From Sulfurimonas sp. (lineage in GTDB: Bacteria; Campylobacterota; Campylobacteria; Campylobacterales; Sulfurimonadaceae): a stretch of 42,533 nucleotides of DNA. Both the position numbers and the translations under genes were made by a program. The notes below the pieces were generated by a model. The model was not told the origin of the DNA and ran no database searches. It saw nothing but the letters and a program-made list of their open reading frames with translations. How positions within the stretch are numbered: the stretch's first letter is position 1; each line of letters opens with the position of its first letter. This document shows, in pieces, positions 2,631-38,381 of the stretch. The stretch lies in contig JAMOSN010000057.1 of the NCBI GenBank assembly GCA_027068455.1, positions 1-42,533 of the forward strand, written 5' to 3'.

Positions 2631-4712
2631 ATGCCTTTATCACGTCTTAATGAAGAACAGCACGCTGCTGCTACATCTACACAAAGTAAAAACCTTATTA
2701 TCGCCTCTGCAGGAACAGGAAAAACATCAACTATTGTTGGTCGTATCGCCTATCTTCTTCAAAATGGTATTGCACCTCAAGAGATTTTACTCCTTACCTT
2801 TACCAATAAAGCTGCTGCTGAGATGGTAGCTCGTGTAGCAGAATATTTTGGAAGTGAAGTTGCCAAAAAAATAGATGCTGGGACATTTCATGCTGTAAGC
2901 TACAGATGGTTGAAAAAAAAAGATAAAAAGATAGTTTTAAAGCAACAACGAGAGCTCAAAACCCTTTTTCGCTCTGTTTATGAAAAACGCTCTTTTGGGC
3001 ATTTAGATGCAGAAGTACCACCATACGGTGGGAACCATCTATATGATTTGTATTCTTATTACCAAAATACAGAACTGAGTAAAGATTTTGAAAGCTGGCT
3101 TATTGAGAACTATCCAGAACATGAACTCTTTGCCATGATATATGCCGATATTGTTGATGAGTTTGAAGCTTTGAAAACAGAATACGGTTTTGTTAACTTT
3201 AATGATCTGCTTTTACATTTTCGTGCTATGTGTAAAAACGAAAATCTAGGCTACAAAGAGGTGCTTGTTGATGAGTATCAAGATACCAATGCACTTCAAG
3301 GCACACTTATCGATGCAATGCAACCACCTTCACTTTTTTGTGTAGGTGATTATGATCAGTCGATTTACGCCTTTAATGGTGCGGATATCAATATCATCGC
3401 TTCTTTTACAAAAAAATATCCTGATGCTGTTGTTCATACGCTTACAAAGAACTACCGTTCAAGTATGCCTATACTCTCTTTGGCAAATAAAGTAATAGAG
3501 ATTAATGAACGTATCTATCCTAAAAAACTGGAAGTAACACGCAAATTTGATGCAAAAGCACCGACGTTGCTGGCATTTGATGAACTTTTTGATCAGTATC
3601 ATGGTGTTGCTGCAAAGATTCAGGAATCTCAAACGCCACATGAAGATATAGCGGTGATCTTTCGCAATAACTCCTCAGCTGATGGGATAGAAGTTGGACT
3701 TCGTGAACTTGGTATAAAGTGTAAACGAAAAGGGGGTACAAGTTTTTTTGATTCTCGGGAAGTTAAAGCTATCCTGGATTTATATACTTTGTTAGTAAAT
3801 GAGGCTGATATGATGGCATTTATTCATCTTTTTGAGTTTGCACGGGGGATTGGAAGTGCGATGGCAAAAGAGCTCTATATTGCACTGAAAACTCTTGGGC
3901 ATGGAAAGTTGTTTTATGGTCTTTATGCGGCAGATGAATCTATAAAAAATCCTTTTGAAAAAAGAAAACTCAATCATCAGTTAGGTCTTTTTGATGACTT
4001 TATAGAGCTTGGAGCTGTGGGCAAGTTTGCAAAACTCGGTTTTGAAGCAAAGTTTATGAAAAATCCTATTTTAAAGCATCCCAAACTCACCAAAGACAAT
4101 GCAACTTTTTTACATAATTTTTATTTGTTATTTAGAGATTTAAAAGGGATTAAACAACCTAAAACTGTTGTAAAAAAAATCGCATCTTCTGAACTCTTTG
4201 GTTACATAGTTGATGTACTTTCCACAAAAAGAGCAACACTTAAAGATGGAAGTGTCGATGAAAAACAAAGAGAGGAGTCTAAAACACGTATAACACGCAA
4301 GATGGTTTTACTGCAAGAGTTGGCAAAACCTTACGGTGAACATGATAGATTTTTAAATGCGATGATACTTGGCTCTTCAGACTTAACACAAGGGGAGGGT
4401 GTGAATCTTTTGAGTGTACACGCAAGTAAAGGGCTTGAGTATAAAGAAGTATATGTTGTTGATTTGATGGATGGACGCTTTCCAAACCGTAAGCTTATGG
4501 TTCGAGGTGGCAGTCTTGATGAAGAGAGACGACTTTTTTATGTTGCAGTCACACGAGCCAAAGATATTCTCTATCTGAGTTATGCAAAATATGACAAGAT
4601 TAAAAAACAAAATTTTTTGCCAAGTCAGTTTTTATATGAAGCAGGGCTTGTTCCCAAGGATGAAAACTATACATCCTTGGTTATGAAAGAAGCAGATAAA
4701 GAGGAAGACTAA
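2631..4712 (+). CDS. UvrD/Rep/PcrA-family ATP-dependent DNA helicase
   Basis: Walker A ASAGTGKTSTIVGR, LLTFTNKAAAEM, VDEYQDTN, VGDYDQSIYAFNGA, LSVHASKGLEYKEVYVV, VAVTRAK motifs. Confidence 0.95.
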   Translation: MPLSRLNEEQHAAATSTQSKNLIIASAGTGKTSTIVGRIAYLLQNGIAPQEILLLTFTNKAAAEMVARVAEYFGSEVAKKIDAGTFHAVSYRWLKKKDKKIVLKQQRELKTLFRSVYEKRSFGHLDAEVPPYGGNHLYDLYSYYQNTELSKDFESWLIENYPEHELFAMIYADIVDEFEALKTEYGFVNFNDLLLHFRAMCKNENLGYKEVLVDEYQDTNALQGTLIDAMQPPSLFCVGDYDQSIYAFNGADINIIASFTKKYPDAVVHTLTKNYRSSMPILSLANKVIEINERIYPKKLEVTRKFDAKAPTLLAFDELFDQYHGVAAKIQESQTPHEDIAVIFRNNSSADGIEVGLRELGIKCKRKGGTSFFDSREVKAILDLYTLLVNEADMMAFIHLFEFARGIGSAMAKELYIALKTLGHGKLFYGLYAADESIKNPFEKRKLNHQLGLFDDFIELGAVGKFAKLGFEAKFMKNPILKHPKLTKDNATFLHNFYLLFRDLKGIKQPKTVVKKIASSELFGYIVDVLSTKRATLKDGSVDEKQREESKTRITRKMVLLQELAKPYGEHDRFLNAMILGSSDLTQGEGVNLLSVHASKGLEYKEVYVVDLMDGRFPNRKLMVRGGSLDEERRLFYVAVTRAKDILYLSYAKYDKIKKQNFLPSQFLYEAGLVPKDENYTSLVMKEADKEED
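3536..3544 (+). repeat. AACACGCAA word, exact
   Basis: Exact match in helicase gene; encodes V-TRK frame. Confidence 0.9.
4292..4300 (+). repeat. AACACGCAA word, exact
   Basis: Exact match in helicase gene; I-TRK frame. Confidence 0.9.
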
Positions 4713-7722: not shown

Positions 7723-8919
7723 TTAATTATGATGAAGCTTCTTTTTAATAATATCCTGTGCTGCCAAATAGCCACTCGCCCAGGCAAAAGCAAAGTTAAA
7801 TCCACCACGGCGACCCACAACATCTAACACCTCTCCTGTAAAATAGAGGTTCTTTTTTTTGTAGGATTCAAAGGTTTTAGGATTTATCTCTTGCGTGTTA
7901 ACACCACCGCCACTTACCTCTGCGTGTCTAAATCCATGGGTGTCAGTAACTTCAAATTTCCAGTTAAGGATTTGATTGGCTATTTTTTTTGTAAGCTTTG
8001 TTGTGATGGGTGTTGCGTGTTGTATATCTAGCGTTTCCAAAACAGCTTTGAGTATCTTTTGAGGTAAAAGCCCTGCCAAAATATCTTCTATGCTTAAAAG
8101 AGGATTTGCTTTTGCAACTTTTTGTATATGGTTGGAGAGTTTTTGTATCGTAAACTCTGGTAAGAGATTGATACTGATATCAACAGCTTGAAAATGTAAA
8201 AGTGCCTCACTCACAAAGTGTGAAATATCCAAAATCGCAAACCCTGAAACACCATAGTTGCTAAAAAGCACATCTCCTTGTGTCTGCATCTCTTTTTGTC
8301 CATTTATATAGAGTGAAACCTCTGTAAAGATTTTTGCCCCTGTCATCTTTTTGACAATCTTCTCTCTTAGATGAAGCTGCACGAGACTTGGAAATGTTGG
8401 GATGATGGTATGTCCAAACTCCTGTGCAAATGTGTATCCGTCTGCACAACCGCCAAGATGGGATGCAGCTTCACTTCCTGTGGCAACAACAACTGCATCA
8501 TAGTCTTTAAAAAGTGGAGTAAGTGTTGTGATTTTTGTATCGGTTAAAATCTTCACACCTAAAAGTGTTGCGTGCTGCATCAAAAGTGTTGCTACTGATT
8601 TTGCTTCATTGGAGAGGGGATAGACTCTGCCATCATCTGTTCTTTGCAGTACAAGTCCCATATCTGATACATATTTTTCAAACGCTTTGTAGTCAAAATT
8701 TTGGAGCGCATATGTAACAAAAGATGGATTTTGTGAAAAGTAATCTTGTGGTGAGAGTTGCGTGTTGGATATATTACATCGTCCATTACCTGAGACTAAA
8801 ATCTTTTTGGCAGGTTTGGAATTTTGTTCAAAAACAGTAACATTAAGACCATTTTTTGCACACTCTATCGCACATAAAAGTCCACTAGCTCCTGCTCCAA
8901 TAATGGCAATTTTTTTCAT
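7723..8919 (-). CDS. NAD(P)/FAD-dependent oxidoreductase, HI0933/BaiN family
   Basis: MKKIAIIGAGASGLLCAIECAKNG dinucleotide-binding fold; VSGNGRCNISN; GGGVNTQEINPKTFESK-type region; FTGEVLDVVGRRGGFNFAFAWASG. Start taken at the MKKIAIIG methionine rather than the longer track ORF. Confidence 0.92.
   Translation of the reverse strand: MKKIAIIGAGASGLLCAIECAKNGLNVTVFEQNSKPAKKILVSGNGRCNISNTQLSPQDYFSQNPSFVTYALQNFDYKAFEKYVSDMGLVLQRTDDGRVYPLSNEAKSVATLLMQHATLLGVKILTDTKITTLTPLFKDYDAVVVATGSEAASHLGGCADGYTFAQEFGHTIIPTFPSLVQLHLREKIVKKMTGAKIFTEVSLYINGQKEMQTQGDVLFSNYGVSGFAILDISHFVSEALLHFQAVDISINLLPEFTIQKLSNHIQKVAKANPLLSIEDILAGLLPQKILKAVLETLDIQHATPITTKLTKKIANQILNWKFEVTDTHGFRHAEVSGGGVNTQEINPKTFESYKKKNLYFTGEVLDVVGRRGGFNFAFAWASGYLAAQDIIKKKLHHN
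7891..7899 (-). repeat. AACACGCAA word, exact
   Basis: TTGCGTGTT on + strand; NTQ in oxidoreductase. Confidence 0.9.
8013..8021 (-). repeat. AACACGCAA word, exact
   Basis: TTGCGTGTT on + strand; QHAT frame in oxidoreductase. Confidence 0.9.
8758..8766 (-). repeat. AACACGCAA word, exact
   Basis: TTGCGTGTT on + strand; NTQ in oxidoreductase. Confidence 0.9.
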
Positions 8920-8921: not shown

Positions 8922-9611
8922 TTACAGTACCTCCCATGGTGTAGCATACTCTTTGAGAGCTTCTTTGCAAGCATCACTTACAAATCTCTCCCCCTCTAAA
9001 GGTGCAAGTGTAAAGTGGTAAGTTGTATTTTTATAGTTAAAGGTGAGTCCATAAGCATGCAAATATCCCCTTTGCTCTTTTTTTGCGTCTATAGCATTAG
9101 CATAGCGGATATCTCCTACTATGGGGGCACCTATACTTTTGAGTGCAACACGCAACTGATGGGTTTTGCCTGTATAGGGTTTGAGAAGAAAAAGTCTCTC
9201 ATTGGGTTGAATAGATTTTGAACAAAACTGCGTAACGGCTGGATTGTTTTTGCTTTGAAGTAACTTGTAGCTTCCTCTTCTTGAGAGTGCCATATCTGCT
9301 TTTATCCACCCTTGCTTTTTCTTTGGTTTTTTTGTTGCAATGGCTAGATAATATTTTTGAATCTCTTTATTTTGAAACATGGTGGCAAAATCATTGGCAA
9401 CTTTACTTGACTTGGCAAGTATCAAAAGACCCGAAGTCATCTTATCAAGCCTGTGAACACTTAAAAGATTAGGGTGAAACATCTTTTGCGCAAGCACAAC
9501 ACAGCCAGCCTCGTTATCTTCTGAATGGAAGTTGAGATTGGCAGGTTTATAGAGAATGAGAAAATCATCATTTTCATAATGGACGAAGATAGTATGGTTT
9601 GGTGTTTGCAT
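8922..9611 (-). CDS. RluA-family pseudouridine synthase
   Basis: FLILYKPANLNFHS, LLSVHRLDKMTSGLLILAKS, KPYTGKTHQLRVALKSIGAPIVGD. Confidence 0.93.
   Translation of the reverse strand: MQTPNHTIFVHYENDDFLILYKPANLNFHSEDNEAGCVVLAQKMFHPNLLSVHRLDKMTSGLLILAKSSKVANDFATMFQNKEIQKYYLAIATKKPKKKQGWIKADMALSRRGSYKLLQSKNNPAVTQFCSKSIQPNERLFLLKPYTGKTHQLRVALKSIGAPIVGDIRYANAIDAKKEQRGYLHAYGLTFNYKNTTYHFTLAPLEGERFVSDACKEALKEYATPWEVL
9147..9155 (+). repeat. AACACGCAA word, exact
   Basis: Antisense to the RluA-family gene; encodes LRV there. Confidence 0.9.
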
Positions 9612-9613: not shown

Positions 9614-11836
9614 TTACAGATGAACGATTTTGGCACCAAAGCCACCAAGATGTTGTGGAGCATCTTCAAAACTCTTTACCCGTGGATGGTGTTTTAAAAA
9701 CTCTTTGACTGCATAAGAGAGCTTCCCTGTACCTATGCCGTGATAGACAATCACTTCATCCCAGCCATTGATAAGCGCATCATTTAAAAACTTGTCAAGC
9801 ACTTCACACGCTTCATCACCACGCATACCGTGAAGATCACATTTAAGACCCGCTTTTTTTGTCACATTGACACTCACATCGGTTTTTGGTTGTGTTTTGA
9901 GAATCTTTGTAGGTTTGAGATGTTTGGTTTTGACACGGATTTTCATACCGTTTATCTCAACCATCGCTTCATTTTTCCCTTTCATAGCTACAATAGTACC
10001 GCTTTGGGTGTGGTACTTGACTTCATCACCAACATGGAACTCTATTTCTCTTTTTATTGGTGCTTTTTGCTCTTTTGGCAGTTTTTTGTTTGCCTTGTTC
10101 ATAGCTCTGTGAATCTCTTTAATATCATCACCACGAGCAGCTTTTTTTGCTTCATTGATGGCATCTTCATAACTTTTTTTAAGTTTTTGTTTCTCTTTTT
10201 CGAGTTCTTGAAGAAGTTGCTCTTTTTGTTCTTGAAGAAGACGCTCTTTCTTTTGTAAATTTTCAAGTTTCTCATCCACTTGTTTGTGTTTGTGTTTGAG
10301 TTCTCGCTCAAGCTGACTGCCTCGCTCTATAAGTAAAGAGAGCTTCTCGGAGTTGTCCCCATAAACCTGTTTGGCTTTTTCAACCAAAGTGTGTGCAATG
10401 CCGTAGCGACTTGCTGTTTCAAAAGCGTAACTTTTCCCAATGATACCCTGCATAAACTCATACGTTGGGCGACGAGCTTCCTCATCGTAGATAGCAGCCA
10501 TAAGCTCAACATCATCACGGTCAGCCATAAGTGCAGCGAGTCGTTTGTGGTGGGTGGTGACTACCACTTTTTGTCCCCGTTTGATCAAATCATCAAGAAT
10601 CACCTTAAAAAGTGCTGCCGCTTCATCAGAGTCGGTTCCAAGTTCTATCTCATCGACACCCACCAAGATATTTTTATGTTCAAATATTTTGCTAAATTGT
10701 TGCATTCTTCCTGCAAATGTTGAGATATCATTTTTCACATTTTGTGGATCATCAATGATGGCAAGTACTTTTTTAAAGTTACCTATATGACTTTTATGGG
10801 TATCTATTTTCATGGGGATGGTGTATTTTGCCATAAATGTAGCAGCTAAAATCGATTTCAAAAGCATCGTTTTTCCACCAGCATTTACCCCTGTAATCAT
10901 TAAAATATTTTTTGAAAAATCTACATTAATGGGTTTTGCATTGTGAAGTGCAGGGTGGATAAAATCTTTTAAAATGATTTTGGTATCGTTTTTACTCTTA
11001 AGCAGTTCAAGATTTTGTGAGCGAGCAAACATAACACGTGCTTGATAGTTGTCAAACTTATCAAACTCTTTGTCTATAAAGTTGATAAAAGGCAAAAGCT
11101 CTGCAAGTTTTGTTGAAAACTCTTTGGCATACGTGTAAAAGATAGCTTCCCGCTCCTGTTCAATAAAGCGAATCTTCTCTTTTGCTTTTAAAATTGAATC
11201 GGGTGCAACATAAAAAAAGCCACCACTGCTTCTTCCAATTACAGCACCTTTGAGTACATGGTTAAATCCTCCGCGAACAAGTAAACACTCTTCGTTGTTG
11301 ATGAAGTGTACTTGCGTGTCCACAAGGTAAGGGGCAATTTTTGAACTGTTCATAAGCCGTTTGAGTGAGCCGCTGATATCGTTTTTATGTTCTTGAACAC
11401 GCTTTGAGAGTTGAAAAAGGTTCTCATCAAGGTTCTCTTCAAATTTACCGTCATGTGTGAAGTATTTTTCAATCTCTTGAAATTTCTCAGGGATGATGAT
11501 CTTATCCATCCACTGTTTTAAAATGCCATCAAGTTCTTTTTTACCAAAATAGCGAAAATAACGTACCACTTTAACTATTTCAAATATTTGTTCAAAACTA
11601 AGCACCCCATGTTTCTTGAGGTGGAGTTTGAGTGTTGTAAAGTCTGTTACTTTTGGAGGTGCTTTAAACTCTAGGGCATCAAGTGCTTTTATGTAACGAA
11701 AATGGAGTTCCTGATCACCTTGAATGTATAAAGTGTGCTCACGAGAGAAAAATGTTTGAAACTGAGTTATATGCTCTTTGAGGTCGAGTTGTGCTATAAG
11801 CACATCGAGTTGCGTGTTGGAATCTTTTACTGACAT
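9614..11836 (-). CDS. mutS2: Endonuclease MutS2
   Basis: MutS ATPase (MITGVNAGGKTMLLKS, DEIELGTDSDEAAAL, VVTTHHKRLAAL), coiled coil and C-terminal Smr domain (CDLHGMRGDEACEVLDKFLND...VIVYHGIGTGKLSYAV). Confidence 0.96.
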   Translation of the reverse strand: MSVKDSNTQLDVLIAQLDLKEHITQFQTFFSREHTLYIQGDQELHFRYIKALDALEFKAPPKVTDFTTLKLHLKKHGVLSFEQIFEIVKVVRYFRYFGKKELDGILKQWMDKIIIPEKFQEIEKYFTHDGKFEENLDENLFQLSKRVQEHKNDISGSLKRLMNSSKIAPYLVDTQVHFINNEECLLVRGGFNHVLKGAVIGRSSGGFFYVAPDSILKAKEKIRFIEQEREAIFYTYAKEFSTKLAELLPFINFIDKEFDKFDNYQARVMFARSQNLELLKSKNDTKIILKDFIHPALHNAKPINVDFSKNILMITGVNAGGKTMLLKSILAATFMAKYTIPMKIDTHKSHIGNFKKVLAIIDDPQNVKNDISTFAGRMQQFSKIFEHKNILVGVDEIELGTDSDEAAALFKVILDDLIKRGQKVVVTTHHKRLAALMADRDDVELMAAIYDEEARRPTYEFMQGIIGKSYAFETASRYGIAHTLVEKAKQVYGDNSEKLSLLIERGSQLERELKHKHKQVDEKLENLQKKERLLQEQKEQLLQELEKEKQKLKKSYEDAINEAKKAARGDDIKEIHRAMNKANKKLPKEQKAPIKREIEFHVGDEVKYHTQSGTIVAMKGKNEAMVEINGMKIRVKTKHLKPTKILKTQPKTDVSVNVTKKAGLKCDLHGMRGDEACEVLDKFLNDALINGWDEVIVYHGIGTGKLSYAVKEFLKHHPRVKSFEDAPQHLGGFGAKIVHL
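11810..11818 (-). repeat. AACACGCAA word, exact
   Basis: TTGCGTGTT on + strand; NTQ near MutS2 N-terminus. Confidence 0.9.
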
Positions 11837-13977: not shown

Positions 13978-15109
13978 CTAAACACTCCTTAATTCTTTGT
14001 AATGCATCTTTTGTTTTTGCTTCAGACTCTACAAGAGCTATTCGTATATATCCAGTACCTGGATTATTGCCCTGTGCATTCTCTCTTGCTAAAAACTCTC
14101 CTGGAAGTACTTTAACATTGTACTCTTTATAGAGCTTTTTTGTAAATGTAAGTGCATCTTCAACACGCAACCAGATATAAAAGGTTGCTTCTGGAATCTC
14201 AACTCCTAAAATCTCTTTGGCAATAGCGAAATTTTTTGTATAGATTTCACGTGACAAAGCAACATGTTCCTCATCATTCCATGCTGCTGCTGCTGCACTT
14301 TGGAGTGGAAGAGGGGAAGCACATCCGACATAGGTACGATACTTCATATACTCTTTGAGTATTTGCGCATCTCCAGCGATAAAACCTGAACGAAGTCCAG
14401 GAGCACAAGAGCGCTTGGAGATGGAGTTGATAACAAGTATATTTTTATGTTGCGTGTTACCAACAGCCAAAGAAGCCTCTAAGAGTGACGGGGGTGGTGT
14501 TTTTGTATATATTTCGCTGTAACACTCATCATTTAAAAGAACAAAATCATATTTGAGTGCAAGTTCCACCCATTTAGAAAGTTCTTCAAGCGATAGTGTC
14601 GCACTTGTTGGATTGTTTGGAAAATTTATGATAACCAAATCACAAGATGCCAGTTTATCTTCATCTATTTTGGGTTGAAAATTATTTTTAGCATCAAGGT
14701 TAAGATGGATAGTTTGAGAGCGTGTAGCGATTGCTGCTCCCTCATATATTTGATAAAAAGGGTTTGTGTAAGCCATAACAGGCTCTTTTTTATCAAAGAG
14801 CAAAAACTGTGGAAAGTTAAATAAAACCTCTCTTGTTCCAAATGTTGGGATAATCTCTTCGTTTGTAAGTGTCACATTAAAACGTTTTTTTACAAAAGAG
14901 AGCATTGCTTCTCTTAGTGATGCTTCTCCTGTTGTTTTTGGATACTTTTGAAGAAGTGCACTGCTTGCGCATAACTTTTCTTGAATAAAAGCTGGTGTTT
15001 CAAATTGTGGCTCACCTATTGTAAGAACAGAGGGTGTATATGCTGGATTTGGTGTAATATCTTGAAGTAAAGCGTTGAGTTTTTCAAATGGATATGGTTC
15101 AAAGTTCAT
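13970..15109 (-). CDS. Class I/II PLP-dependent aminotransferase (succinyldiaminopimelate transaminase-like)
   Basis: PLP fold I: VLTIGEPQFETPAFI, NFPNNPTSATLS, LLNDECYSEIY, NSISKRSCAPGLRSGFIAG. Assignment as DapC is inferred. Confidence 0.85.
   Translation of the reverse strand: MNFEPYPFEKLNALLQDITPNPAYTPSVLTIGEPQFETPAFIQEKLCASSALLQKYPKTTGEASLREAMLSFVKKRFNVTLTNEEIIPTFGTREVLFNFPQFLLFDKKEPVMAYTNPFYQIYEGAAIATRSQTIHLNLDAKNNFQPKIDEDKLASCDLVIINFPNNPTSATLSLEELSKWVELALKYDFVLLNDECYSEIYTKTPPPSLLEASLAVGNTQHKNILVINSISKRSCAPGLRSGFIAGDAQILKEYMKYRTYVGCASPLPLQSAAAAAWNDEEHVALSREIYTKNFAIAKEILGVEIPEATFYIWLRVEDALTFTKKLYKEYNVKVLPGEFLARENAQGNNPGTGYIRIALVESEAKTKDALQRIKECLGE
14162..14170 (+). repeat. AACACGCAA word, exact
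   Basis: Antisense to aminotransferase; encodes LRV there. Confidence 0.9.
14450..14458 (-). repeat. AACACGCAA word, exact
   Basis: TTGCGTGTT on + strand; NTQ in aminotransferase. Confidence 0.9.
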
Positions 15110-15204: not shown

Positions 15205-15747
15205 ATGAAAATAGTATTATCAACAGTTGTTGCACTGTTTTTACTTGGATGTAGTGAAAATAACACGCAACATATACAAGAAGAAGAAACACAAACAGTA
15301 CAAAAAACACAAGAAACAAAGCAGTCGATGACGCAAAGTGCAACTAAAGCACAAGAAGAAGTGAGTAAAAAAGTACAAGAAACTACAAAAGAGTTGGCTA
15401 CGCAAGTGAAAGAAAAAGCGATAGAGGTGGAATCTGTTACTACTGAAGTTGTGGATAAAAATTTAGCAGTAGTAAAAGCAAAGACACAAGAACATACACA
15501 ACCTAGTATTGATGCGGCAAAACTTTTTAATGGTTGTGCAGCTTGTCATGGAAAAGATGGTTCAAAATCTGCTTTAAATAAATCGAAAGTGATTAAAGGA
15601 TGGGAAAAATCCAAAACTGTTGAGACACTAAAAGGGTATCAAAACGGTACATATGGTGGTGCTATGAAAGGGATAATGAAAGGGCAGGCTGGTAAGCTTA
15701 ATGATGATGAGATTAATGCTTTAGCAGAGTATATTTCCAAGCTTTAA
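15205..15747 (+). CDS. Lipoprotein c-type cytochrome
   Basis: Lipobox FLLGCSEN; long Gln/Lys/Glu/Thr-rich linker; KLFNGCAACHGKDGSKSA heme motif CAACH; C-terminal GKLNDDEINALAEYISKL. Confidence 0.9.
   Translation: MKIVLSTVVALFLLGCSENNTQHIQEEETQTVQKTQETKQSMTQSATKAQEEVSKKVQETTKELATQVKEKAIEVESVTTEVVDKNLAVVKAKTQEHTQPSIDAAKLFNGCAACHGKDGSKSALNKSKVIKGWEKSKTVETLKGYQNGTYGGAMKGIMKGQAGKLNDDEINALAEYISKL
15262..15270 (+). repeat. AACACGCAA word, exact
   Basis: NTQ just after lipobox Cys of cytochrome c lipoprotein. Confidence 0.9.
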
Positions 15748-16016: not shown

Positions 16017-16367
16017 GTTGCGTGTTTGAACATCTACTACACTAATGGCATACTCCCCATCATGTGTGATGGAGAGTGCTACATCTAAGATCTCAAACTT
16101 TTGTATAATCTTTTTTGAGAGTGCAATATGTGGTGCACCTTTATCCGTCTTATAGATTCTTATATCAAAAAAACTACACTCTTTTCCTATACCCGTTCCC
16201 AAAGCTTTTGAAAATGCCTCTTTTGTTGCCCAAAATCCAGCAGCGGTTTTATGGTTTTTAACAAGTAAAATTTCATCAGGATGTAAAAATCTTCGTAGCG
16301 CTTTTTCTCCAAAGCGCTCTAAAAAGCGCTCCATTCTGGAGAGTTTAATAATATCGATGCCGATCAT
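15984..16367 (-). CDS. acpS: Holo-[acyl-carrier-protein] synthase
   Basis: MIGIDIIKLSRMERFLERFG, GFWATKEAFSKALGTGIG, LSITHDGEYAISVVDV. Confidence 0.93.
   Translation of the reverse strand: MIGIDIIKLSRMERFLERFGEKALRRFLHPDEILLVKNHKTAAGFWATKEAFSKALGTGIGKECSFFDIRIYKTDKGAPHIALSKKIIQKFEILDVALSITHDGEYAISVVDVQTRNSSTTDKIKQF
16018..16026 (-). repeat. AACACGCAA word, exact
   Basis: TTGCGTGTT on + strand, 1 nt after thiS stop codon; within acpS 3' end (QTRN). Confidence 0.9.
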
Positions 16368-20597: not shown

Positions 20598-21170
20598 CTA
20601 TTTTCCTAATGCGCGTTTAATATCGCTCTCTATGAACTCTTCTTCAATAGCACCTTGATAAAAACGGATAAGTTTGCCATCTTTATAAATCGCTAAAAGT
20701 GGAATACCAAAATTATTACCTAGTTTGAGTTGTTTTGCTAAAGTATCAATAAGGCGACGGTTCTGATCAGAATTTACAAGTGTATAGGTTGCATTATGCT
20801 GTGTTGCAAACTCTTGAAGTTTTGCATTGTCGATGTTGTCTTCAACACTAACACCTATCACTTTAATATCTTTTTCATATTTTTTCTGTAATGAAGAGAG
20901 ATGTGATGCTGATGCCTGACAAGGTGGACACCATGTGGCAAATACATCAATAAGTAAGAGTTTGTTTTTATCGTTTTGAAGATAAAAACCCTGTGTTGTT
21001 TTTTGCAGTGTGAGTTGCGTGTTGTCAATAGAGCGAAGAGGAAATTCATTTGTACTTAAAATAGCATTTGCTTTTTGTGTGGAGGATTGCTCTTTTTTTG
21101 TTTCATTGGAACAAGCTTGAAAAAATAAACTAACAGCAAGCAGAGGGATGAAAATTGTTGTTTTAAACAT
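20598..21170 (-). CDS. TlpA-like thioredoxin-fold lipoprotein
   Basis: Lipobox SLFFQACSN, FATWCPPCQASASHL CXXC motif; start taken at MFKTTIF rather than the longer track ORF. Confidence 0.88.
   Translation of the reverse strand: MFKTTIFIPLLAVSLFFQACSNETKKEQSSTQKANAILSTNEFPLRSIDNTQLTLQKTTQGFYLQNDKNKLLLIDVFATWCPPCQASASHLSSLQKKYEKDIKVIGVSVEDNIDNAKLQEFATQHNATYTLVNSDQNRRLIDTLAKQLKLGNNFGIPLLAIYKDGKLIRFYQGAIEEEFIESDIKRALGK
21015..21023 (-). repeat. AACACGCAA word, exact
   Basis: TTGCGTGTT on + strand; NTQ in TlpA-like protein. Confidence 0.9.
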
Positions 21171-21265
21171 AAAAAGTGACCTTTGTTTTTTTTCTTTGTG
21201 TAAAATAAATCTCTTGTTTCTACAAGAGTTTTTAATGTGCAAAATTATAGCGATAAAGATTTAAT

Positions 21266-23411: not shown

Positions 23412-23422
23412 TGCAAACTCAA
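23395..23422. terminator. Likely bidirectional terminator between rny and DUF3365 gene
   Basis: Perfect inverted repeat TTGAGTTTGCA-agatag-TGCAAACTCAA (11-bp arms, 6-nt loop) at a convergent gene junction; rny stop codon lies in the loop. Confidence 0.6.
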
Positions 23423-23442
23423 TAATTAATATGGAAGTAAGA

Positions 23443-24039: not shown

Positions 24040-24137
24040 ATATTGTTATAATTGTGCCTAATTATAGCAAGACTTAGAATAATTTAATGCAACTTTGAGT
24101 ACAATTGCGTAATTTTTAAAGACAAGGGAGCACTCCT

Positions 24138-24812
24138 ATGGGTGAATTGTTTACTTTTTTCGGTCTTATTTCTCACGATAAGACATTCATTTTTATGACA
24201 CACATGTTGCTATCGGCTGGTATAGCTCTTCTTCTTGTTAGAATGGCTATGGCTAACCTTCAAGTAGTACCTAGAGGTGCACAGAATTTTATGGAAGCAT
24301 ACATAAATGGTGTTTTACAAATGGGTACGGATGTTATGGGTAAAAGTCATGCTCGTAAATATGTAGCGTTAGTTGCAACAATTGGTCTTTTTGTTGGTAT
24401 CGGAAACTTAGTTGGTGTTATTCCAGGTTTTGAAGCTCCAACTGCATTTTTAGAGATGCCATTGGCATTAGCTATCACTGTATTTGTATACTATAACTAT
24501 GTTGGTATCAAAGCTCACGGTGTAGTAAACTACTTTAAACACTTTCTTGGACCTGTTTGGTGGTTGTACTGGTTAATGTTCCCAATTGAGATTGTATCTC
24601 ACTTTTCTCGTTTAGTATCTCTCTCTTTCCGTTTATTTGGAAATGTTAAGGGTGATGATATGTTCTTGATGGTTATCTTGATGCTTGCTCCTTGGTTGTT
24701 ACCAATGATTCCATTTGCATTACTAACTTTTATGGCTTTCTTACAAGCTTTCATCTTCATGATGTTAACATATGTTTACCTCGGTGGCGCAATAGCTGTT
24801 GAGGAACACTAA
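24138..24812 (+). CDS. atpB: F0F1 ATP synthase subunit a
   Basis: PRGAQNFMEAYINGVLQM, LVGVIPGFEAPTA, VSLSFRLFGNVKGDDMFL, LQAFIFMMLTYVYL. Confidence 0.97.
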   Translation: MGELFTFFGLISHDKTFIFMTHMLLSAGIALLLVRMAMANLQVVPRGAQNFMEAYINGVLQMGTDVMGKSHARKYVALVATIGLFVGIGNLVGVIPGFEAPTAFLEMPLALAITVFVYYNYVGIKAHGVVNYFKHFLGPVWWLYWLMFPIEIVSHFSRLVSLSFRLFGNVKGDDMFLMVILMLAPWLLPMIPFALLTFMAFLQAFIFMMLTYVYLGGAIAVEEH

Positions 24813-24821
24813 AAACTTTTT

Positions 24822-25085
24822 ATGCAAAAAGATATATACGAACGTATCATAAACTTTTTGCTTGGAGCATCATGGGCAATTGTCCTTTTTGGTGCTCTAC
24901 TTACTTTTAAAATTTTTCTTACATTTGGTCTTGTTCTAGCCCTTTTTATAGCACTTTTATATATCATCATATCTTTATTTCTTATCTTACTGCTTGATGC
25001 TTTTTTAGTCCATAAACAAAGACTTCAAGAAGCAAAAAAACAGACAAAACTTTTAGAAAAAATCTACGCAAAACATACAAAATAG
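24822..25085 (+). CDS. Small hypothetical membrane protein downstream of atpB
   Basis: 87 aa with two TM segments and basic C-terminus; 9 nt after atpB. Confidence 0.75.
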   Translation: MQKDIYERIINFLLGASWAIVLFGALLTFKIFLTFGLVLALFIALLYIIISLFLILLLDAFLVHKQRLQEAKKQTKLLEKIYAKHTK

Positions 25086-25159
25086 TTACCCTATTACCTC
25101 TTTTAAAGTAAAGATGGGATAAAATAGAGCACTATTAATATATTATGCTAAGGAAAATT

Positions 25160-26590
25160 ATGTTTGAAGTGGTTATAGGACTTGAGGTCCATGTTCAACT
25201 CAATACAAAAACGAAACTTTTTTGCTCGTGTCCTACGAGTTTTAATCATAAACAAAATACAAATACATGTCCGACTTGTTTGGCACTCCCTGGAGCATTG
25301 CCAGTTCTTAACAAAGAGGTTGTGCATAAGTCTGTTATGCTAGGAACAGCGATTGAAGCAACAATAAATAGAGTTTCATACTTTGACAGAAAATCATATT
25401 TTTACCCAGATTCCCCATCAGCGTATCAGATTACACAGCTTTACACTCCAATTGTGGAAGATGGAAAGCTTATGATAGATTTTGAAGATGGTTCCTCCAA
25501 AGAGATAAGAATCAACCGTGCACACATTGAAGCAGATGCAGGGAAAAATATTCATGATGGTGATATCTCCAAAGTAGATTTAAATCGTGCAGGAACACCA
25601 CTTTTAGAAATAGTAAGTGAACCAGATATGCGTAGTGCAGAAGAAGCTGTGCTTTACTTGAAAAAACTTCACTCAATCATCCGCTATACAGATATCGGAG
25701 ATGCAAATATGCAAGAGGGGAGTTTTCGTGTAGATGTCAATGTTTCTATCCGTCCTAAGGGTGATGAAAAGCTTTATACTCGTGTCGAGATAAAAAATAT
25801 AAACTCATTTAAATTTATCCAAAAAGCGATAGAGGTGGAAGTGCAGCGCCAGATTGAAGCGTGGGAAGATGGTACTTATGATGAAGAGATAGTGCAAGAG
25901 ACACGACTTTTTGACCAGATTAAAAGTGAGACTCGTTCTATGCGTGGTAAAGAGGAGGCTGCTGATTATAGATATTTTCCTGAGCCAGACCTTTTAAAAT
26001 GTGTAGTCACTGATGAGATGATGGAGGAGTACACAAAGATACCTGAACTTCCTGATGTGAAAAAAGAGCGTTTTATCTCTGAATATGGTATGAGTGCGTA
26101 CAATGCTTCTGTTATCACTTCAGCAGTTGAGATGGCAAACTTTTTTGAGACGATGATGGCTGAAAATGGTGTAAGTGCCAAAACAGCTACTACATGGTTG
26201 ACAGTTGAATTGCAAGCGCGATTAAAAGGGGAGATCAATATTATGAACTCACCTGTAGATGCAAAAAAACTAGGATTTTTAGTCAAACGTATAGATGACA
26301 AAACCATCTCTGGAAAAGCAGCAAAAGAGGTGCTTGATTATTTAATGGAAAATGAAAGTGTCAGTGTTGATGATGCTATTGATACTCTTGGATTAAAGCA
26401 GGTGACAGATACAGGTGCAATTGAGGCTATGTGTGATGAAATTATCAATGCAAACCAAGACAAGGTTGAACAATACAAAGCTGGAAAAGAGAAACTTTTT
26501 GGTTTTTTTGTCGGACAGGTGATGAAAGCATCCAAAGGGAGTGCTAATCCTCAAGTAGTTAATGAGATTTTAAAAGCTAAGTTAGGATAA
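25160..26590 (+). CDS. gatB: Aspartyl/glutamyl-tRNA amidotransferase subunit B
   Basis: [64 protein letters not shown]. Start taken at MFEVVIG. Confidence 0.97.
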
Positions 26591-26593
26591 CAA

Positions 26594-28156
26594 ATGCTTA
26601 AGCGCCTGATACTTGATGCTGCATACTATTTACAAACTTCACAATCGTATCAGGCACGTAAAAAGTTTTTTTACGATATTTTAGAAAATGATAATTGTAA
26701 ATATAAAAAATATATAGATATGATGATGATGGTGTTTATTTTTATAAGCGTTGCAGTCTTAATCCGTGAAGTGAAGTTTCATGTCAATGATTATCTTCTT
26801 TTCTTTAGCAACTATATCATCTCTTTTATATTTTTTATAGAGTATATGTTACGTTTATGGGTGAGCAGTAGTGTCAGTGAGATTATTGTAGCTCGAGCCG
26901 AACATGATACTTTTTTATTAAGGGAAGTGAATCTTGCAAAGGCTTTAAGAAAAGCGTTGCATGTTAAGCTCTCTTATATGCTCTCGATTCAGGCTATTAT
27001 AGACCTTTTGGCAATTCTACCATTTTTCCATGAACTTCGATTGCTGAGAATTTTTATCCTTTTTCGTGTTTTTAAACTCTTTCGTTATGCAAAAAGCTTT
27101 CAAACACTTTCTAGTGTCCTTGCAACTAAAAAGTTTGAGTTTTTTACCTTAGCGATCTTTGCTTCTATTGTTATCTTTGTTTCTTCTGTTTTGATTTATG
27201 TTATGGAAGCAAATAATGACGCATCACCTATCAATACCCTTTTTGATGCCATTTACTGGTCTATCGTAACTATCTCAACAGTAGGGTATGGAGATGTGAC
27301 AGCAGTAACACAAGAGGGTCGTTTTGTTGCTCTTTTAGTTATTACAGCAGGTATTGCTGTTCTTGCATTTACAACATCACTGTTTGTTTCTGCTTTTACT
27401 GAAAAACTTTATGAAATTAAAGAGATAAAAACGATTGAGGATGTTTCAAAATTAAAGAATTTTTATTTGATTTGTGGGTATGAAAAAGTGGCACAGGAGC
27501 TTAGTTGTAAACTTGCAAATAATGGAAATAAAATCATTGTTTTAGATGATGATGAATATCGTATTAATAAAGCACAACAAGATGGTTTTATCGCTTTACA
27601 TTATAATCCTGGTTCTGTTGAGAGTTATAAAAAACTCAACATTGATATTGATAAGCAGGTAAAAGCCATTTTGTGTTTAAGAGAAGATGATATTGAAAAT
27701 GTATATACTGCTTTAACAGTTCGTTCTCTCAATAAAGATGTTTTTATACTTTCACTTCTGATAAATGATACTAATCGTAAAAAATTGAAGTTTGCGGGTA
27801 TCAATAAAATAGTCTATCCTCAAGAATTGGTAGGACTTATAACAAAAGAGTTGGTTGGTAAACCAGTTGCTTTTGAAGTTATTCATGAACTTAGAAGTGA
27901 TCATACGGGTGTTATAGTAGATGAGATAGGAATAACTTCTAGAATAGTTGAAAATTTTACAACTGTAGGAGAACTCGGAAATAAAGAGTTTAGAGTTGTT
28001 CTTCTTGGTATATATAAGCATAAAGATGATCGTTTTTATTTTAATCCTCTTGATTCTATGTTTATAGAAAATGGAGATTACCTTTTAGTGATTGGATATA
28101 AAATCTTTATCAAGGAATTTGAGAAACATCTTCATACGAAGGTTAGACATGGATAA
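26594..28156 (+). CDS. Voltage-gated-like K+ channel with C-terminal RCK (TrkA-N/TrkA-C) region
   Basis: Six-TM-like N-terminus, LLRIFILFRVFKLFRYAKSF S4-like segment, TISTVGYGDVTAV selectivity filter, FYLICGYEKVAQELSCKLANNGNKIIVLD. Confidence 0.92.
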   Translation: MLKRLILDAAYYLQTSQSYQARKKFFYDILENDNCKYKKYIDMMMMVFIFISVAVLIREVKFHVNDYLLFFSNYIISFIFFIEYMLRLWVSSSVSEIIVARAEHDTFLLREVNLAKALRKALHVKLSYMLSIQAIIDLLAILPFFHELRLLRIFILFRVFKLFRYAKSFQTLSSVLATKKFEFFTLAIFASIVIFVSSVLIYVMEANNDASPINTLFDAIYWSIVTISTVGYGDVTAVTQEGRFVALLVITAGIAVLAFTTSLFVSAFTEKLYEIKEIKTIEDVSKLKNFYLICGYEKVAQELSCKLANNGNKIIVLDDDEYRINKAQQDGFIALHYNPGSVESYKKLNIDIDKQVKAILCLREDDIENVYTALTVRSLNKDVFILSLLINDTNRKKLKFAGINKIVYPQELVGLITKELVGKPVAFEVIHELRSDHTGVIVDEIGITSRIVENFTTVGELGNKEFRVVLLGIYKHKDDRFYFNPLDSMFIENGDYLLVIGYKIFIKEFEKHLHTKVRHG

Positions 28157-28856
28157 CACAACAGCACTTGTATTTGGTAAGAATAAATATGCCTCAGAAA
28201 TTGTTGCTAACGTTAGAGATAAATATCAGCATGTACGTATCTTTAGTCTTTACAATGAAGAAGACAATGAGATTGAAAAATTTGATTTAAGTGATAGTTG
28301 GGAGAATATTCAAGAAGATATTAATGCAAAACAATCAATAGCGTTTTGTGTTCTTGAAGATACTGCTGAAAATATATTTTTAACCATTTCACTCAGAGCG
28401 CATTTTCAGGATTTAACCATTATTGCCATTGCATCCAATAAAGAGAGCGCCAATAAGCTTAAAATGGCAGGAGCGAACAAAGTGATACCATTGGTTGAGA
28501 CAACAGCCGATATAATAACAAATATGTTAGAAAAGCCAATTTCAAGTAGAGTGCTTAATAGTATTTTATATGAAGAGAGTGATTTAAAAATCGCACAGAT
28601 TAAGATAAGCCAAGAAAGTCGTTTTAACAATATACAACTAGCAAATATTGACTGGAGCAGATATAACGGTATAATTGTATTATCTGTTATACACAGTGAT
28701 ATGCAGGGTGAATTTATATACTCTTCAAAAGTAGAAGATCATATTATAAAACCTGGAGATATTTTGGTTATTGTAGGATATGAACATGATATTCAAGAGT
28801 TTGAGAAAAAGATAGGGAGCAAAAGATATGTCAATTGGAGTCATTGGAGCTGGTAA
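28149..28856 (+). CDS. Stand-alone RCK/TrkA-type regulatory protein
   Basis: TALVFGKNKYASEIVANVRDKY..., KMAGANKVIPLVETTADIITNML, IIKPGDILVIVGYEHDIQEFEKKI (TrkA-C end). Start MDNTTALVF overlaps the channel gene stop by 8 bp. Confidence 0.85.
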   Translation: MDNTTALVFGKNKYASEIVANVRDKYQHVRIFSLYNEEDNEIEKFDLSDSWENIQEDINAKQSIAFCVLEDTAENIFLTISLRAHFQDLTIIAIASNKESANKLKMAGANKVIPLVETTADIITNMLEKPISSRVLNSILYEESDLKIAQIKISQESRFNNIQLANIDWSRYNGIIVLSVIHSDMQGEFIYSSKVEDHIIKPGDILVIVGYEHDIQEFEKKIGSKRYVNWSHWSW

Positions 28857-29715
28857 ATGGGGCAGTGCACTTGCTTTTGCCTTAAGTGAAAAAAATGATG
28901 TGTATATATACTCAAGAAATAAAAGAGACGTAAAAAATTTTGTTTCATTAGAGAAGATACTTCAATGTGAATATTTGATCATTACTGTACCAGCTCAAGC
29001 TGTATCATCATGGTTAGAAGAATCATTTGTTTTTAACGGACAAAAGATTCTCGTAGCATCAAAAGGGATTGAAGCTTCTACAGGTAGATTTTTAAATGAA
29101 ATCTACAATAAGTATGTACCCAATGAAAATATCGCTTTTCTTTCAGGTCCATCTTTTGCAACAGAGGTGATGCAGTCACTTCCTACTGCTTTGGTTATTA
29201 ACTCAACAAATAATGTTTTAGCAGATGATTTTGCTAATCTTTTTCCATCTTTTATCAAAACATATACCTCAAGTGATGTCATTGGTGCTGAAGTTGCAGG
29301 CGCATATAAAAATGTGATAGCTATTGCAGCAGGTATAGTTTCAGGTTTAGAACTAGGTAATAATGCAGCTGCAGCACTTATCTCTCGAGGCCTTGTGGAG
29401 ATGCATAGATTTGGTACATTTTATGGTGCACAAACAGAGAGTTTTTTAGGTTTGAGTGGTGCAGGGGACCTTTTTTTAACGGCGTCTTCAACAATGAGCA
29501 GAAATTTTAGAGTTGGGCTTGGCATTGCACAAGGAAAAACACAAAAAGAGATTTTAGAATCTTTGGGGGAAGTGGCTGAAGGTATTGGTACAACCTATGC
29601 GCTTTATGAAATAGCATTAAAACATAATCTCTATCTACCAATTGCAAAAGAGGTATATGAGATGCTTGAGGGAAAAAACCCACAAAAAAGTTTACAAGAT
29701 TTACTCTCAAGATAA
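28828..29715 (+). CDS. gpsA: Glycerol-3-phosphate dehydrogenase [NAD(P)+]
   Basis: MSIGVIGAGKWGSALAFALSEKN, FLSGPSFATEVM, GAEVAGAYKNVIAIAAGIVSGLELGNNAAAALISRGLVEM, GLSGAGDLFLTASS. Confidence 0.96.
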   Translation: MSIGVIGAGKWGSALAFALSEKNDVYIYSRNKRDVKNFVSLEKILQCEYLIITVPAQAVSSWLEESFVFNGQKILVASKGIEASTGRFLNEIYNKYVPNENIAFLSGPSFATEVMQSLPTALVINSTNNVLADDFANLFPSFIKTYTSSDVIGAEVAGAYKNVIAIAAGIVSGLELGNNAAAALISRGLVEMHRFGTFYGAQTESFLGLSGAGDLFLTASSTMSRNFRVGLGIAQGKTQKEILESLGEVAEGIGTTYALYEIALKHNLYLPIAKEVYEMLEGKNPQKSLQDLLSR

Positions 29716-29731
29716 AAAAGAGGAAACAGGG

Positions 29732-31093
29732 ATGGCGAAGTTGCTAATGTATTCTGATGGAGTAAAACTGTTATTTGCTCTTATTATTGGCGTTATAGGA
29801 TATTTTCTTTCTATATTCTTTCTTTCTCAGCAGCAGAGTATATTAGTTGGTATCATAGCGATGTTAATTGCTTTATGGACCAATGAGGTATTGCCTCTTG
29901 GTGTTGTCTCTCTTTTACCGATTGTTTTATTTCCTGCATTTGGTATTATTGATACAAAGATGACAACAGCGAATTATGCTCACCCTATTATATACCTATT
30001 TTTGGGTGGATTTATGTTGGCAATAGGGGTTGAAAAAACCAAGCTTCATATTTTTATAGCTGATAAAATATTGTCCTTTTTCCCTTCAACTCCGCGTGGT
30101 ATGATTTTTTCTCTAGCATTAACTTCAGGTTTGTTAAGCTCCATCCTTTCAAATACCACAACAACTCTTTTACTTATCTCCATAGCTATTTTTTTAACCA
30201 ATAATGCAAAGCTTAAAATGCGTTTTGCATTGGCAATTGCATATGGTGCAAGTATCGGTGGTATTTTAACTCCTATAGGGACACCACCAAACCTCATTCT
30301 CTTGGGTATTATGCAAGAACATAATATGGAGCTTATCCCATTTTTCAAGTGGATGATGATGGTGGCACCTTTGGTTTTTGTGATGTTAGTGAGTGTGAGT
30401 CTTTTACTTTCAGTAGGTGTTGGTAATATGAAGATACAAAGAGATATTGAAGTGCATCCTTTAAACACGCAACAAAAGAAAGTTCTTGGTTTAATGTTTG
30501 GTTTAATTGCTTTACTCTTTGTTAATGCTCCTATAAGACCTTACTGGGATGGTTTAGGTATGAGTGAAAGTGTTATTTTACTAAGTTTTGGACTTTTGTT
30601 ATTTTTTCCTTATTTTCAGGTACTTGATTGGAGAGATGATGCACATAAAATCCCTTATGCGATTATGTTTTTATTTGGTGCTGGATTTTCAATAGCAAAA
30701 GCATTTTCACATACTGGTTTGGCTGATGAACTAGCGTCTTATCTCTTACAAATTACAGATATGACGCCTGTTCTTTTACTCTTATCAATTGCAATTCTTA
30801 TTACTTTTACAACAGAAGTAACATCAAATACAGCGCTTATTTCGATTATGTTACCTGTGATCTATTCGGTAGCTGAGCAATCAGGAATCAATACAACCCT
30901 TTTTATGATGGTAGCAACTGTATGTGCTAGTTATGCGTTTATGTTGCCAATAGCAACAGCACCTAATGCGATTGCTATGAGTAGCGGTGCTGTACATGTT
31001 AAAGATATGATACGTTACGGTATTATCTTGAATCTTTTGGGAATCTTTTTTATTGTTATTACAGCATCACTATTTTGGAAAAATATTCTTTAG
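29732..31093 (+). CDS. SLC13/DASS-family sodium:anion symporter
   Basis: ILSNTTTTLLLISIAIFL, GASIGGILTPIGTPPNLILLG, TEVTSNTALISIMLPV, FMLPIATAPNAIAMSSG. Confidence 0.92.
   Translation: MAKLLMYSDGVKLLFALIIGVIGYFLSIFFLSQQQSILVGIIAMLIALWTNEVLPLGVVSLLPIVLFPAFGIIDTKMTTANYAHPIIYLFLGGFMLAIGVEKTKLHIFIADKILSFFPSTPRGMIFSLALTSGLLSSILSNTTTTLLLISIAIFLTNNAKLKMRFALAIAYGASIGGILTPIGTPPNLILLGIMQEHNMELIPFFKWMMMVAPLVFVMLVSVSLLLSVGVGNMKIQRDIEVHPLNTQQKKVLGLMFGLIALLFVNAPIRPYWDGLGMSESVILLSFGLLLFFPYFQVLDWRDDAHKIPYAIMFLFGAGFSIAKAFSHTGLADELASYLLQITDMTPVLLLLSIAILITFTTEVTSNTALISIMLPVIYSVAEQSGINTTLFMMVATVCASYAFMLPIATAPNAIAMSSGAVHVKDMIRYGIILNLLGIFFIVITASLFWKNIL
30464..30472 (+). repeat. AACACGCAA word, exact
   Basis: NTQ in DASS transporter. 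Confidence 0.9.
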
Positions 31094-33310: not shown

Positions 33311-34125
33311 TTTCAGAACTTTTACAAACTATAACGCAAGAGCTTTCTCAAAGTGTTGAGCGAGCATCAAGGGAAGCACAGCTTTTTGTTATGGAGTTTC
33401 TTGGTGTTGATGAGCTATGGCTAATAACACATCCTAACACGCAAGTGCAAAAGGATTTAGGACAACTTTTTGAGTGGATTGCAAGACGTAAAAAAAATGA
33501 ACCTTTTGAATATATAGTACAAAAGGTAAGTTTTTATTCTCAAGAGTTTTATATCGACAAAGGTGCATTAATCCCTCGACCTGAGACAGAACTTCTTATA
33601 GATGAGGTGATACACAATGTTGCTGATAGCAACACGCAACAAAGGTTTGTGGAAGTTGGTGTCGGCAGTGGTATTATCTCAATAGTGTTAGCACAACACT
33701 TTAAACACGCAACCTTTATTGCAGTTGATATATCGCAAGAGGCGTTGCGTGTTGCAAGAAAAAATATACACAAATTTAATCTTCAAGAGAGAATTGAACT
33801 AAGAGAGAGCTCATTTTTAGATAATGTTGATGAGCAAATAGACTATCTAGTATCAAATCCTCCTTATATTGCCAATGATGCAGCATTAGAATCAAATCTC
33901 TCTTATGAACCTCAAAATGCACTCTTTGGTGGTGAGGTTGGAGATGAGATGATTAAAAAACTTCTTGATGAAGTCTTAAGTCAAAATATTAAGTTTTTTA
34001 GTTGTGAGATGGGTTATGACCAAAAAGATAAAATACAAAATTATTTAGCAGATAAAAGATATAAGAGCCTCACATTTTATAAAGATTACAGTGGATTTGA
34101 CAGAGGCTTTACATTAAAGGTATAA
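33292..34125 (+). CDS. prmC: Peptide chain release factor N5-glutamine methyltransferase
   Basis: IPRPETELLIDEV, VEVGVGSGIISIVLA, IDYLVSNPPYIA (NPPY). Confidence 0.95.
   Translation: MQHRYLVSELLQTITQELSQSVERASREAQLFVMEFLGVDELWLITHPNTQVQKDLGQLFEWIARRKKNEPFEYIVQKVSFYSQEFYIDKGALIPRPETELLIDEVIHNVADSNTQQRFVEVGVGSGIISIVLAQHFKHATFIAVDISQEALRVARKNIHKFNLQERIELRESSFLDNVDEQIDYLVSNPPYIANDAALESNLSYEPQNALFGGEVGDEMIKKLLDEVLSQNIKFFSCEMGYDQKDKIQNYLADKRYKSLTFYKDYSGFDRGFTLKV
33436..33444 (+). repeat. AACACGCAA word, exact
   Basis: NTQ in PrmC. Confidence 0.9.
33631..33639 (+). repeat. AACACGCAA word, exact
   Basis: NTQ in PrmC. Confidence 0.9.
33704..33712 (+). repeat. AACACGCAA word, exact
   Basis: KHAT frame in PrmC. 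Confidence 0.9.
33745..33753 (-). repeat. AACACGCAA word, exact
   Basis: TTGCGTGTT on + strand; LRV in PrmC; inverted relative to 33704 copy. Confidence 0.9.
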
Positions 34126-34663: not shown

Positions 34664-35323
34664 ATGTTTATACGGCTGTTTATCTTTTTATTTTTGTCTG
34701 TTATTGTGGTTTTGCAAGCTTCTTCATACTCTCAAACTATGAAAGAGAAAAAAATCTATCCTATGGGGCAAAAAATTCACCAAAAAAAATGTCCCCATCT
34801 TGAGATTTCCCAGTACGCAAGTTACGATTCCCTTTTACAAGCTGTTGAAGAACAACATATATGTGGTAATCTCAATACAAAATATTCAGAAGCACTTAGT
34901 TTGTACTTATGGGATAAAACACGCAACCATACAAAACATTATGAAAAGCTTACTGTAGATAAAAAGGAAAAATGTCCTGTATGTGGTATGTTTTTATATA
35001 AATATCCTCAATGGATCTCTCGCATATATTATGATGATAAATCTTTTTCATTTGATGGAATAAAAGATATGATGAAGTTCTATTTTGACAACAAAGAGGG
35101 TGTTAGAGAACTTTTAGTTCAGGATTATTACACAGGAAAAACTATTGATGCAAAACAAGCTTATTTTGTTATAGGCAGTGATGTTTATGGACCTATGGGT
35201 AATGAACTGATAGCATTTGATACACTTAAAAGCGCAAAACACTTTTTACTTGACCATCGGGGTAAAAAGGTTATAGAGTTTTCTGAAATAACTCCTGAGT
35301 TGGTATATAAGCTTGATGAATAG
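34664..35323 (+). CDS. NosL-domain lipoprotein/periplasmic protein
   Basis: EKCPVCGMFLYKYPQWISRIYYDDKSFSFDGIKDMMKFYF...TGKTIDAKQAYFVIGSDVYGPMGNELIAF; NosL-type CxxCGM motif with extra N-terminal cysteines. Confidence 0.88.
   Translation: MFIRLFIFLFLSVIVVLQASSYSQTMKEKKIYPMGQKIHQKKCPHLEISQYASYDSLLQAVEEQHICGNLNTKYSEALSLYLWDKTRNHTKHYEKLTVDKKEKCPVCGMFLYKYPQWISRIYYDDKSFSFDGIKDMMKFYFDNKEGVRELLVQDYYTGKTIDAKQAYFVIGSDVYGPMGNELIAFDTLKSAKHFLLDHRGKKVIEFSEITPELVYKLDE
34918..34926 (+). repeat. AACACGCAA word, exact
   Basis: KTRN frame in NosL-domain protein. Confidence 0.9.
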
Positions 35324-37425: not shown

Positions 37426-38381
37426 TATTGACTCCTGAAATAGTGACTATAGAGATCATTAACGCAATTTTTGTTGTTTTTGCTACAATCACATTTGTGA
37501 TCTCTCTTCGAATTGTTTTACTATGGGAGAATGACTCATACAGCCCCTTGCAATACAAACTCCAACTGCAAAGTTATTTGGCTGCAACTATCATAAAATT
37601 TATACTTTATATTAAAATTCTTCTTTTTATTTTTTTTGTTTATACACTTGATAATATAGCTACTCTTTTGCCTGGAGCTATGTGTGGTGCTGGTGTTGTT
37701 AATGCGACTGTGTATGGAACCCCTTTGTTGTTTTTAAAGATTATCAACTTATACCTTTTTGCCTATTGGATTGTTTTGCATAATCAGGATATGCATACAA
37801 AACATCAAAAATATATTCGATTAAAATTTATACTTTTTATTGTGGTTTATTTTCTTTTTATGAGTGAGATAGTTCTTGAGACATTGATGTTTTATAATAT
37901 AGATATATTAAAAGTGGTAGATTGTTGTGGCTCTATATTTAAAACAACTGATGGTTCCTATCTGTCTTCTATATTGAGTATTTCAGATGCTATTATGTTG
38001 AAGCTATTTTATGCCCTTTATGGATTAATGATAGTGGTTTTCTTTTTTAAAAATCGTTATATATTTTCAATATTGAATCTTTTGTTTGTTATTGTAGCAC
38101 TTATCTCTTTAATAACATTCTTTGGAACATATATATATGAGCTGCCAACACACCATTGTCCATTTTGCTTGTTACAACGTGATTATAACTATATTGGCTA
38201 TCTTCTATATATTCTTCTCTTTTTAGGTACATTTAACGGGCTTGTATTAGGTTTTATTGATTTTGATATCAACACGCAAGTAAAAAAATATAAGTTTGCA
38301 CTCTTTTTTAATGGGATATATATAGTGATTGTAAGTTATTATGTTATGAGTTATTTTTTGAAAAACGGAGTATGGTTGTAA
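37422..38381 (+). CDS. Cys-containing polytopic membrane protein, terminal gene of NosL/ABC cluster
   Basis: Multiple TM segments; conserved-looking cysteines in AMCGAGVV, VVDCCGSIF, THHCPFCLLQRDYNYIGY; overlaps ABC ATPase gene. Confidence 0.8.
   Translation: MILTPEIVTIEIINAIFVVFATITFVISLRIVLLWENDSYSPLQYKLQLQSYLAATIIKFILYIKILLFIFFVYTLDNIATLLPGAMCGAGVVNATVYGTPLLFLKIINLYLFAYWIVLHNQDMHTKHQKYIRLKFILFIVVYFLFMSEIVLETLMFYNIDILKVVDCCGSIFKTTDGSYLSSILSISDAIMLKLFYALYGLMIVVFFFKNRYIFSILNLLFVIVALISLITFFGTYIYELPTHHCPFCLLQRDYNYIGYLLYILLFLGTFNGLVLGFIDFDINTQVKKYKFALFFNGIYIVIVSYYVMSYFLKNGVWL
38271..38279 (+). repeat. AACACGCAA word, exact
   Basis: NTQ in Cys-containing membrane protein. Confidence 0.9.

Follow-up and report, generated by a model that had tools for sequence, protein, structure and literature searches.

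The prmC gene of a sulfur-oxidising, Sulfurimonas-genus bacterium (Campylobacterota) carries four copies of the nine-base word AACACGCAA in 318 bp. This locus raises the question of whether such a cluster is an element in its own right or a local outcome of something that concerns the whole genome. We examined it within a window of 42,533 nucleotides (the whole stretch of DNA that was analysed), which belongs to an assembly of 1.54 Mb that is 76% complete. A sequence-only reading had placed four copies of the word in prmC, the last two as an inverted pair. All four proved to be exact and to lie inside the gene (Table 1), and the inversion, with its 32-nt spacer, was confirmed. Intact orthologues of prmC occur in the genus, and the named relatives of this copy, with protein identities that reach 70%, all come from Sulfurimonas, which places the window in that genus. 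In total, the window holds 19 exact copies of AACACGCAA. It was also observed that 9.4 kb of the window (21024-30463) is without the word; conserved genes in that stretch include rny, atpB, and gatB.

Table 1. Positions of prmC, the word copies, and the inverted pair in the window.
Feature	Position	Strand	Context	Remarks
prmC, HemK-type release-factor glutamine methyltransferase, 277 aa	33292..34125	+	ORF	host of cluster
Word copy 1, AACACGCAA	33436..33444	+	in prmC, N-T-Q, codons 49-51	exact match; variable codons, entropy 2.6-2.8 bits
Word copy 2, AACACGCAA	33631..33639	+	in prmC, N-T-Q, codons 114-116	exact match; slot also used by dialects C, D, E, F
Word copy 3, AACACGCAA	33704..33712	+	in prmC, K-H-A-T, codons 138-141	exact match; slot also used by dialect D
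Word copy 4, AACACGCAA	33745..33753	-	in prmC, antisense, L-R-V, codons 152-154	exact match; same slot is TACATGTA in G202, G183
Inverted word pair, predicted hairpin	33704..33753	+	copies 3 and 4	fold
AACACGCAA elsewhere in window	3536..3544; 4292..4300; 9147..9155; 14162..14170; 15262..15270; 30464..30472; 34918..34926; 38271..38279	+
AACACGCAA elsewhere in window	7891..7899; 8013..8021; 8758..8766; 11810..11818; 14450..14458; 16018..16026; 21015..21023	-

The word, the prmC cluster, and the inverted pair

When the word was counted genome-wide, 811 copies of AACACGCAA were found, 408 and 403 on the two strands, compared with 2 copies of the reversed control. The word exceeded its Markov expectation about 30-fold, and AACACGCAAC about 80-fold; in a 290-kb sample, the enrichment corresponded to a z of 67.6. 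Sequences flanking the word were random except at position 10, where S (C or G) occurred in 87%, yielding AACACGCAAS (689 copies in the genome). Because the flanks were unconserved apart from this position, a longer repeat carrying the word was ruled out. Position 9 accepts A or G and the inner core tolerates little: the one-mismatch forms AACACGCAG and GACACGCAA reached 9.7 and 7.7 times their expectation, respectively, and most inner-core changes were not enriched. The extended form of the word is AACACGCARS.

The cluster had been described as far denser than the window average, and four copies in 318 bp indeed amount to about 28 times the window mean. For one gene of prmC length at the sampled density, the probability of at least four words was 0.0012. 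Clustering statistics were drawn from stretches totalling 552-615 kb of the 1.54 Mb assembly. Over 615 kb of this genome, prmC ranked about 5th of 573 genes in word density; over 552 kb, windows with four words in 309 bp were seen six times (four separate loci), compared with 0.21 expected from uniform scattering. Moreover, per-gene word counts were overdispersed, with an index of 1.58. As to whether chance might produce such a cluster, it goes beyond uniform scattering, yet it is one of several dense loci in a genome that is overdispersed throughout. The prmC cluster belongs to the upper tail of a mild genome-wide clumping and is no special element. Among the other word-dense genes were an apparent pdxA-like and an apparent tilS-like gene, both named by eye.

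The RNA of the inverted pair, which the sequence-only reading had suggested be folded, was predicted to form a strong hairpin (-20.2 kcal/mol, z -4.5; with flanks, -22.5 kcal/mol, z -3.4). Inverted pairs of uptake words serve as terminators in Neisseria and Haemophilus, and this precedent, together with the hairpin and the density of words for a single gene (P = 0.0012), would fit a specific functional element in prmC, such as an attenuator, an internal terminator, or a recombination hot spot. However, close inverted pairs were not enriched, in that 10 inverted and 13 direct pairs lay less than 60 bp apart in 552 kb. Also, 97% of words were within ORFs, in line with a coding fraction of 95% of bases, and further genes of the genome are word-dense. 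The prmC hairpin itself lies mid-gene, has no T-run, and is missing in relatives. An excess of inverted pairs and an intergenic position, the marks of terminator dyads, were thus both absent among these pairs and words, and a terminator or dyad role was dropped. Because any two inverted copies of the word would fold in this manner, the hairpin was judged to be a by-product, and the notion of a special element gave way; we regard a specific functional element as very unlikely. Genomes using CTCACGCAR were seen to have an inverted pair of their own, which lies elsewhere in the gene, around codons 11 and 18. By itself the cluster is modest; the real finding is the word system that underlies it.

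Probable dialects of the genus and shared slots in prmC

Each of the other 134 genomes of the genus contained only 0-11 copies of AACACGCAAS, and AACACGCAAC was equally rare in a wider family sample. Candidate words of the relatives were first read from their loci, and the main ones were then counted genome-wide. CTCACGCAR was found at 532-836 copies in 7 genomes and TAAACGCAG at 110-782 copies in 27 genomes; about 19 genomes had the palindrome TACATGTA, with a maximum of 848 sites. These words of relatives were enriched to the same extent as the word studied here and, apart from the palindrome, were balanced by strand. AACACGCAR, CTCACGCAR, and TAAACGCAG have a common 3' core, ACGCAR, which TACATGTA lacks. 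There were no two-class genomes (overlap-free ACGCAR classes versus TACATGTA, P = 0.002, uncorrected for phylogeny). About 80 genomes of the genus had none of the four words at an enriched level, and some of these may carry others. In a prmC tree, the CTCACGCAR genomes formed one clade and the TAAACGCAG genomes did not; the present genome was not placed confidently beside any one dialect.

Several further observations were made on the words of relatives. TACATGTA lies in coding sequence, for instance in L153, L155, L158, and L159 (G053, G117, G142, and G138, respectively), and is not enriched in genomes that use ACGCAR words. Single loci of relatives gave the candidate words CACATGCC (D; L015, L019, L030, L039, L046), TGATGCTAAG (L027/L065), and CTGCATCA (F; L037/L047); words D, E (TGATGCTAA), and F are known from loci of 9-18 kb only. 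AGGTGGAAC occurred in 11 copies on both strands within 2.4 kb of one genome (L163 10402-12784, G089) and is a local repeat array, not a genome-wide word.

To place the words within the gene, 74 distinct prmC sequences were aligned and the own word of each genome was mapped, resulting in 35 placements. These words sat on variable codons (mean entropy 1.60 versus 1.03 expected, sd 0.13), and the mean for the four words of the present genome was 2.03 versus 1.03 (P = 0.005). Codons 113-116 held words of five dialects, and codons 138-140 and 170-172 held words of two dialects each, with small locus samples for slot classes D, E, and F; at codons 152-154, AACACGCAA is found here and TACATGTA in two other genomes. 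CACATGCC, TGATGCTAAG, and CTGCATCA each sit in a prmC slot shared with other dialects. A uniform null predicts 2.15 dialects at one codon and 3.0 slot-sharing dialect pairs; five (P = 0.0004) and 12 (P < 0.0002), respectively, were seen, P values that would be less extreme under a null weighted by codon variability. Part of this sharing follows from the preference of words for variable codons, and inheritance of older words at a given position may contribute as well. Our preferred reading is that words build up at sites where the protein tolerates them. With respect to conservation in sister genomes, the exact cluster was absent from every relative examined, and turnover of sites was clear, the same slots being occupied by the words of other dialects.

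A putative DNA-uptake word

We propose that AACACGCAA, or AACACGCARS, quite probably serves this Sulfurimonas-genus lineage as its DNA-uptake word, and that its sites would have spread by uptake of kin DNA and recombination. The sequence-only reading of the word as one of the uptake type is well supported by its abundance, its strand symmetry, the dialects of relatives, and the competence genes; genome-wide enrichment, equal use of both orientations, dialects that share a core, and the presence of competence machinery are all features of uptake sequences that were found here. The word would be bound by a receptor on the cell surface, in all likelihood a minor pilin of the type IV or competence kind, and binding would lead to preferential uptake of kin DNA. 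In the course of repeated uptake and recombination, such biased gene transfer may have spread word sites wherever the encoded protein tolerates them. prmC would then offer at least four permissive slots, all four filled in this genome, while overlapping slots hold the dialects of other lineages; the inverted pair would be one random outcome of orientation rather than a terminator or a separate element. A palindrome such as TACATGTA would be an unusual tag for a pilin to read, which counts against the uptake reading.

Other accounts of the word were weighed against this proposal. The word is short, frequent, genome-wide, and non-palindromic, as a recombination or segregation signal (Chi-like or KOPS-like) might be. 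However, it showed no consistent strand polarity (408/403 overall; chi-square P = 0.05 along 20 contigs, which are fragments, so that weak polarity is possible), and its enrichment of about 30-fold for the 9-mer, or about 80-fold for AACACGCAAC, also speaks against such a signal. Moreover, signals of the Chi or KOPS type change slowly, whereas the words here are wholly different among species of one genus; we consider this account improbable. Methylation of the words as modification-enzyme sites, marking self DNA, has a precedent within the phylum, where transformation of Campylobacter jejuni depends on methylation by CtsM at RAATTY, and the palindromic form of TACATGTA is one that many methyltransferase targets have. 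Nonetheless, words of 9-10 bases with a degenerate end exceed ordinary methylase sites, for which enrichment to hundreds of copies is not normal, and we give this explanation little credence. Finally, the word might be a by-product of amino-acid or codon usage (N-T-Q, L-R-V), given that sense frame 0 (N-T-Q) was the commonest among coding copies (124 of 326). Yet copies occur in all six frames, for which reason an amino-acid artefact was dropped; also, enrichment was seen neither for the reversed word, nor in relatives with similar proteins, nor for most inner-core substitutions. A by-product of this kind is extremely unlikely.

Competence machinery is present in the genome. ComEC is encoded on C74 and DprA on C42; C89 encodes a pilin, an MshE-type ATPase, and a GspF-type protein, and C52 carries a type II secretion locus. 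In addition, a minor-pilin set adjoins an 1815-aa protein on C27, with homologues in several other genomes that have one or another enriched word. In the parts read of the 76% complete assembly, neither ComEA nor pilins linked to comEC were found. Many relatives have a pilin pair at a distance of about 8 kb from comEC; a pilin of G001 adjoins a ComEA-like protein. The comEC-near pilins, the G001 pilin, and the minor-pilin set are candidates for the receptor; several pilins were found, and none was seen to co-vary with dialect. The machinery does not predict the word, given that genomes lacking all of the searched words likewise have ComEC, DprA, and pilins. A 10-kb pilin locus first thought to track the word was rejected; it is a type II secretion locus, occurs also in genomes without searched words, and is missing from the pilin hits in the word-rich G001.

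Four side observations concern these loci. The type II secretion locus (L214, G000 C52) is nearly word-free, with 9.35 kb lacking a copy, which might mean that the locus arrived late or is under strong constraint. Upstream of comEC, an ORF (L218 10-1851, G000 C74) has a start that is intein-like by eye, possibly in a replicative helicase gene. At about 8587-8661 of L135 (G000 C23), a pilin start like that of the G001 ComEA-linked pilin soon runs into a stop, leaving a 38-aa frame and indicating a broken or fragmentary gene. In G119, an ORF between the two comEC-near pilin genes (L228 8801-9385) is, by eye, like a REP-associated transposase.

Comparison with known uptake systems

It seems reasonably likely that an uptake-word system evolved independently in Sulfurimonas and comprises at least four words that exclude one another, including a palindrome, with slot-by-slot replacement of dialects in prmC; the genus would then be the third natural instance beside Neisseriaceae and Pasteurellaceae. 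No earlier report of such words for Campylobacterota, Epsilonproteobacteria, or Sulfurimonas was found in an open-access library, which does not extend to subscription papers and preprints. If true, a third independent case with many dialects in one genus would allow study of how words originate and switch and of their co-evolution with the receptor, and prmC would provide a concrete record, in which identical codon slots hold different words by species.

According to a 2025 paper (PMC12616744), no families other than Neisseriaceae and Pasteurellaceae are known to employ motifs of this kind. The DUS of Neisseriaceae occur as dialects, with one main word per genome and related words in related species (PMC3630211), and are bound by the receptor ComP (PMC3868556). 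Like the DUS, the word studied here is short and non-palindromic, has hundreds of copies on both strands, is the one main word of its genome, and retains its inner core in the variants of related species. Unlike the DUS, the Sulfurimonas words belong to a different phylum, are unrelated in sequence, and include a palindrome in some species; copies of the present word are coding in about 97% of cases, as coding density predicts, and form no DUS-type terminator dyads, and the receptor and uptake bias are putative here. The USS of Pasteurellaceae, Hin AAGTGCGGT and Apl ACAAGCGGT (PMC12616744), resemble the present word in that a core of 9 bases recurs in hundreds of copies in an A+T-rich genome and variants keep a conserved core. 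The core is different, however; the H. influenzae USS, rejected as a candidate for the word, has only 2 copies in this genome, and more than two word types are found within the one genus Sulfurimonas. With the CtsM system of Campylobacter jejuni, the Sulfurimonas system shares the phylum and a (here putative) discrimination of kin DNA, but the CtsM signal is a modified 6-mer and not an enriched 9-10-mer.
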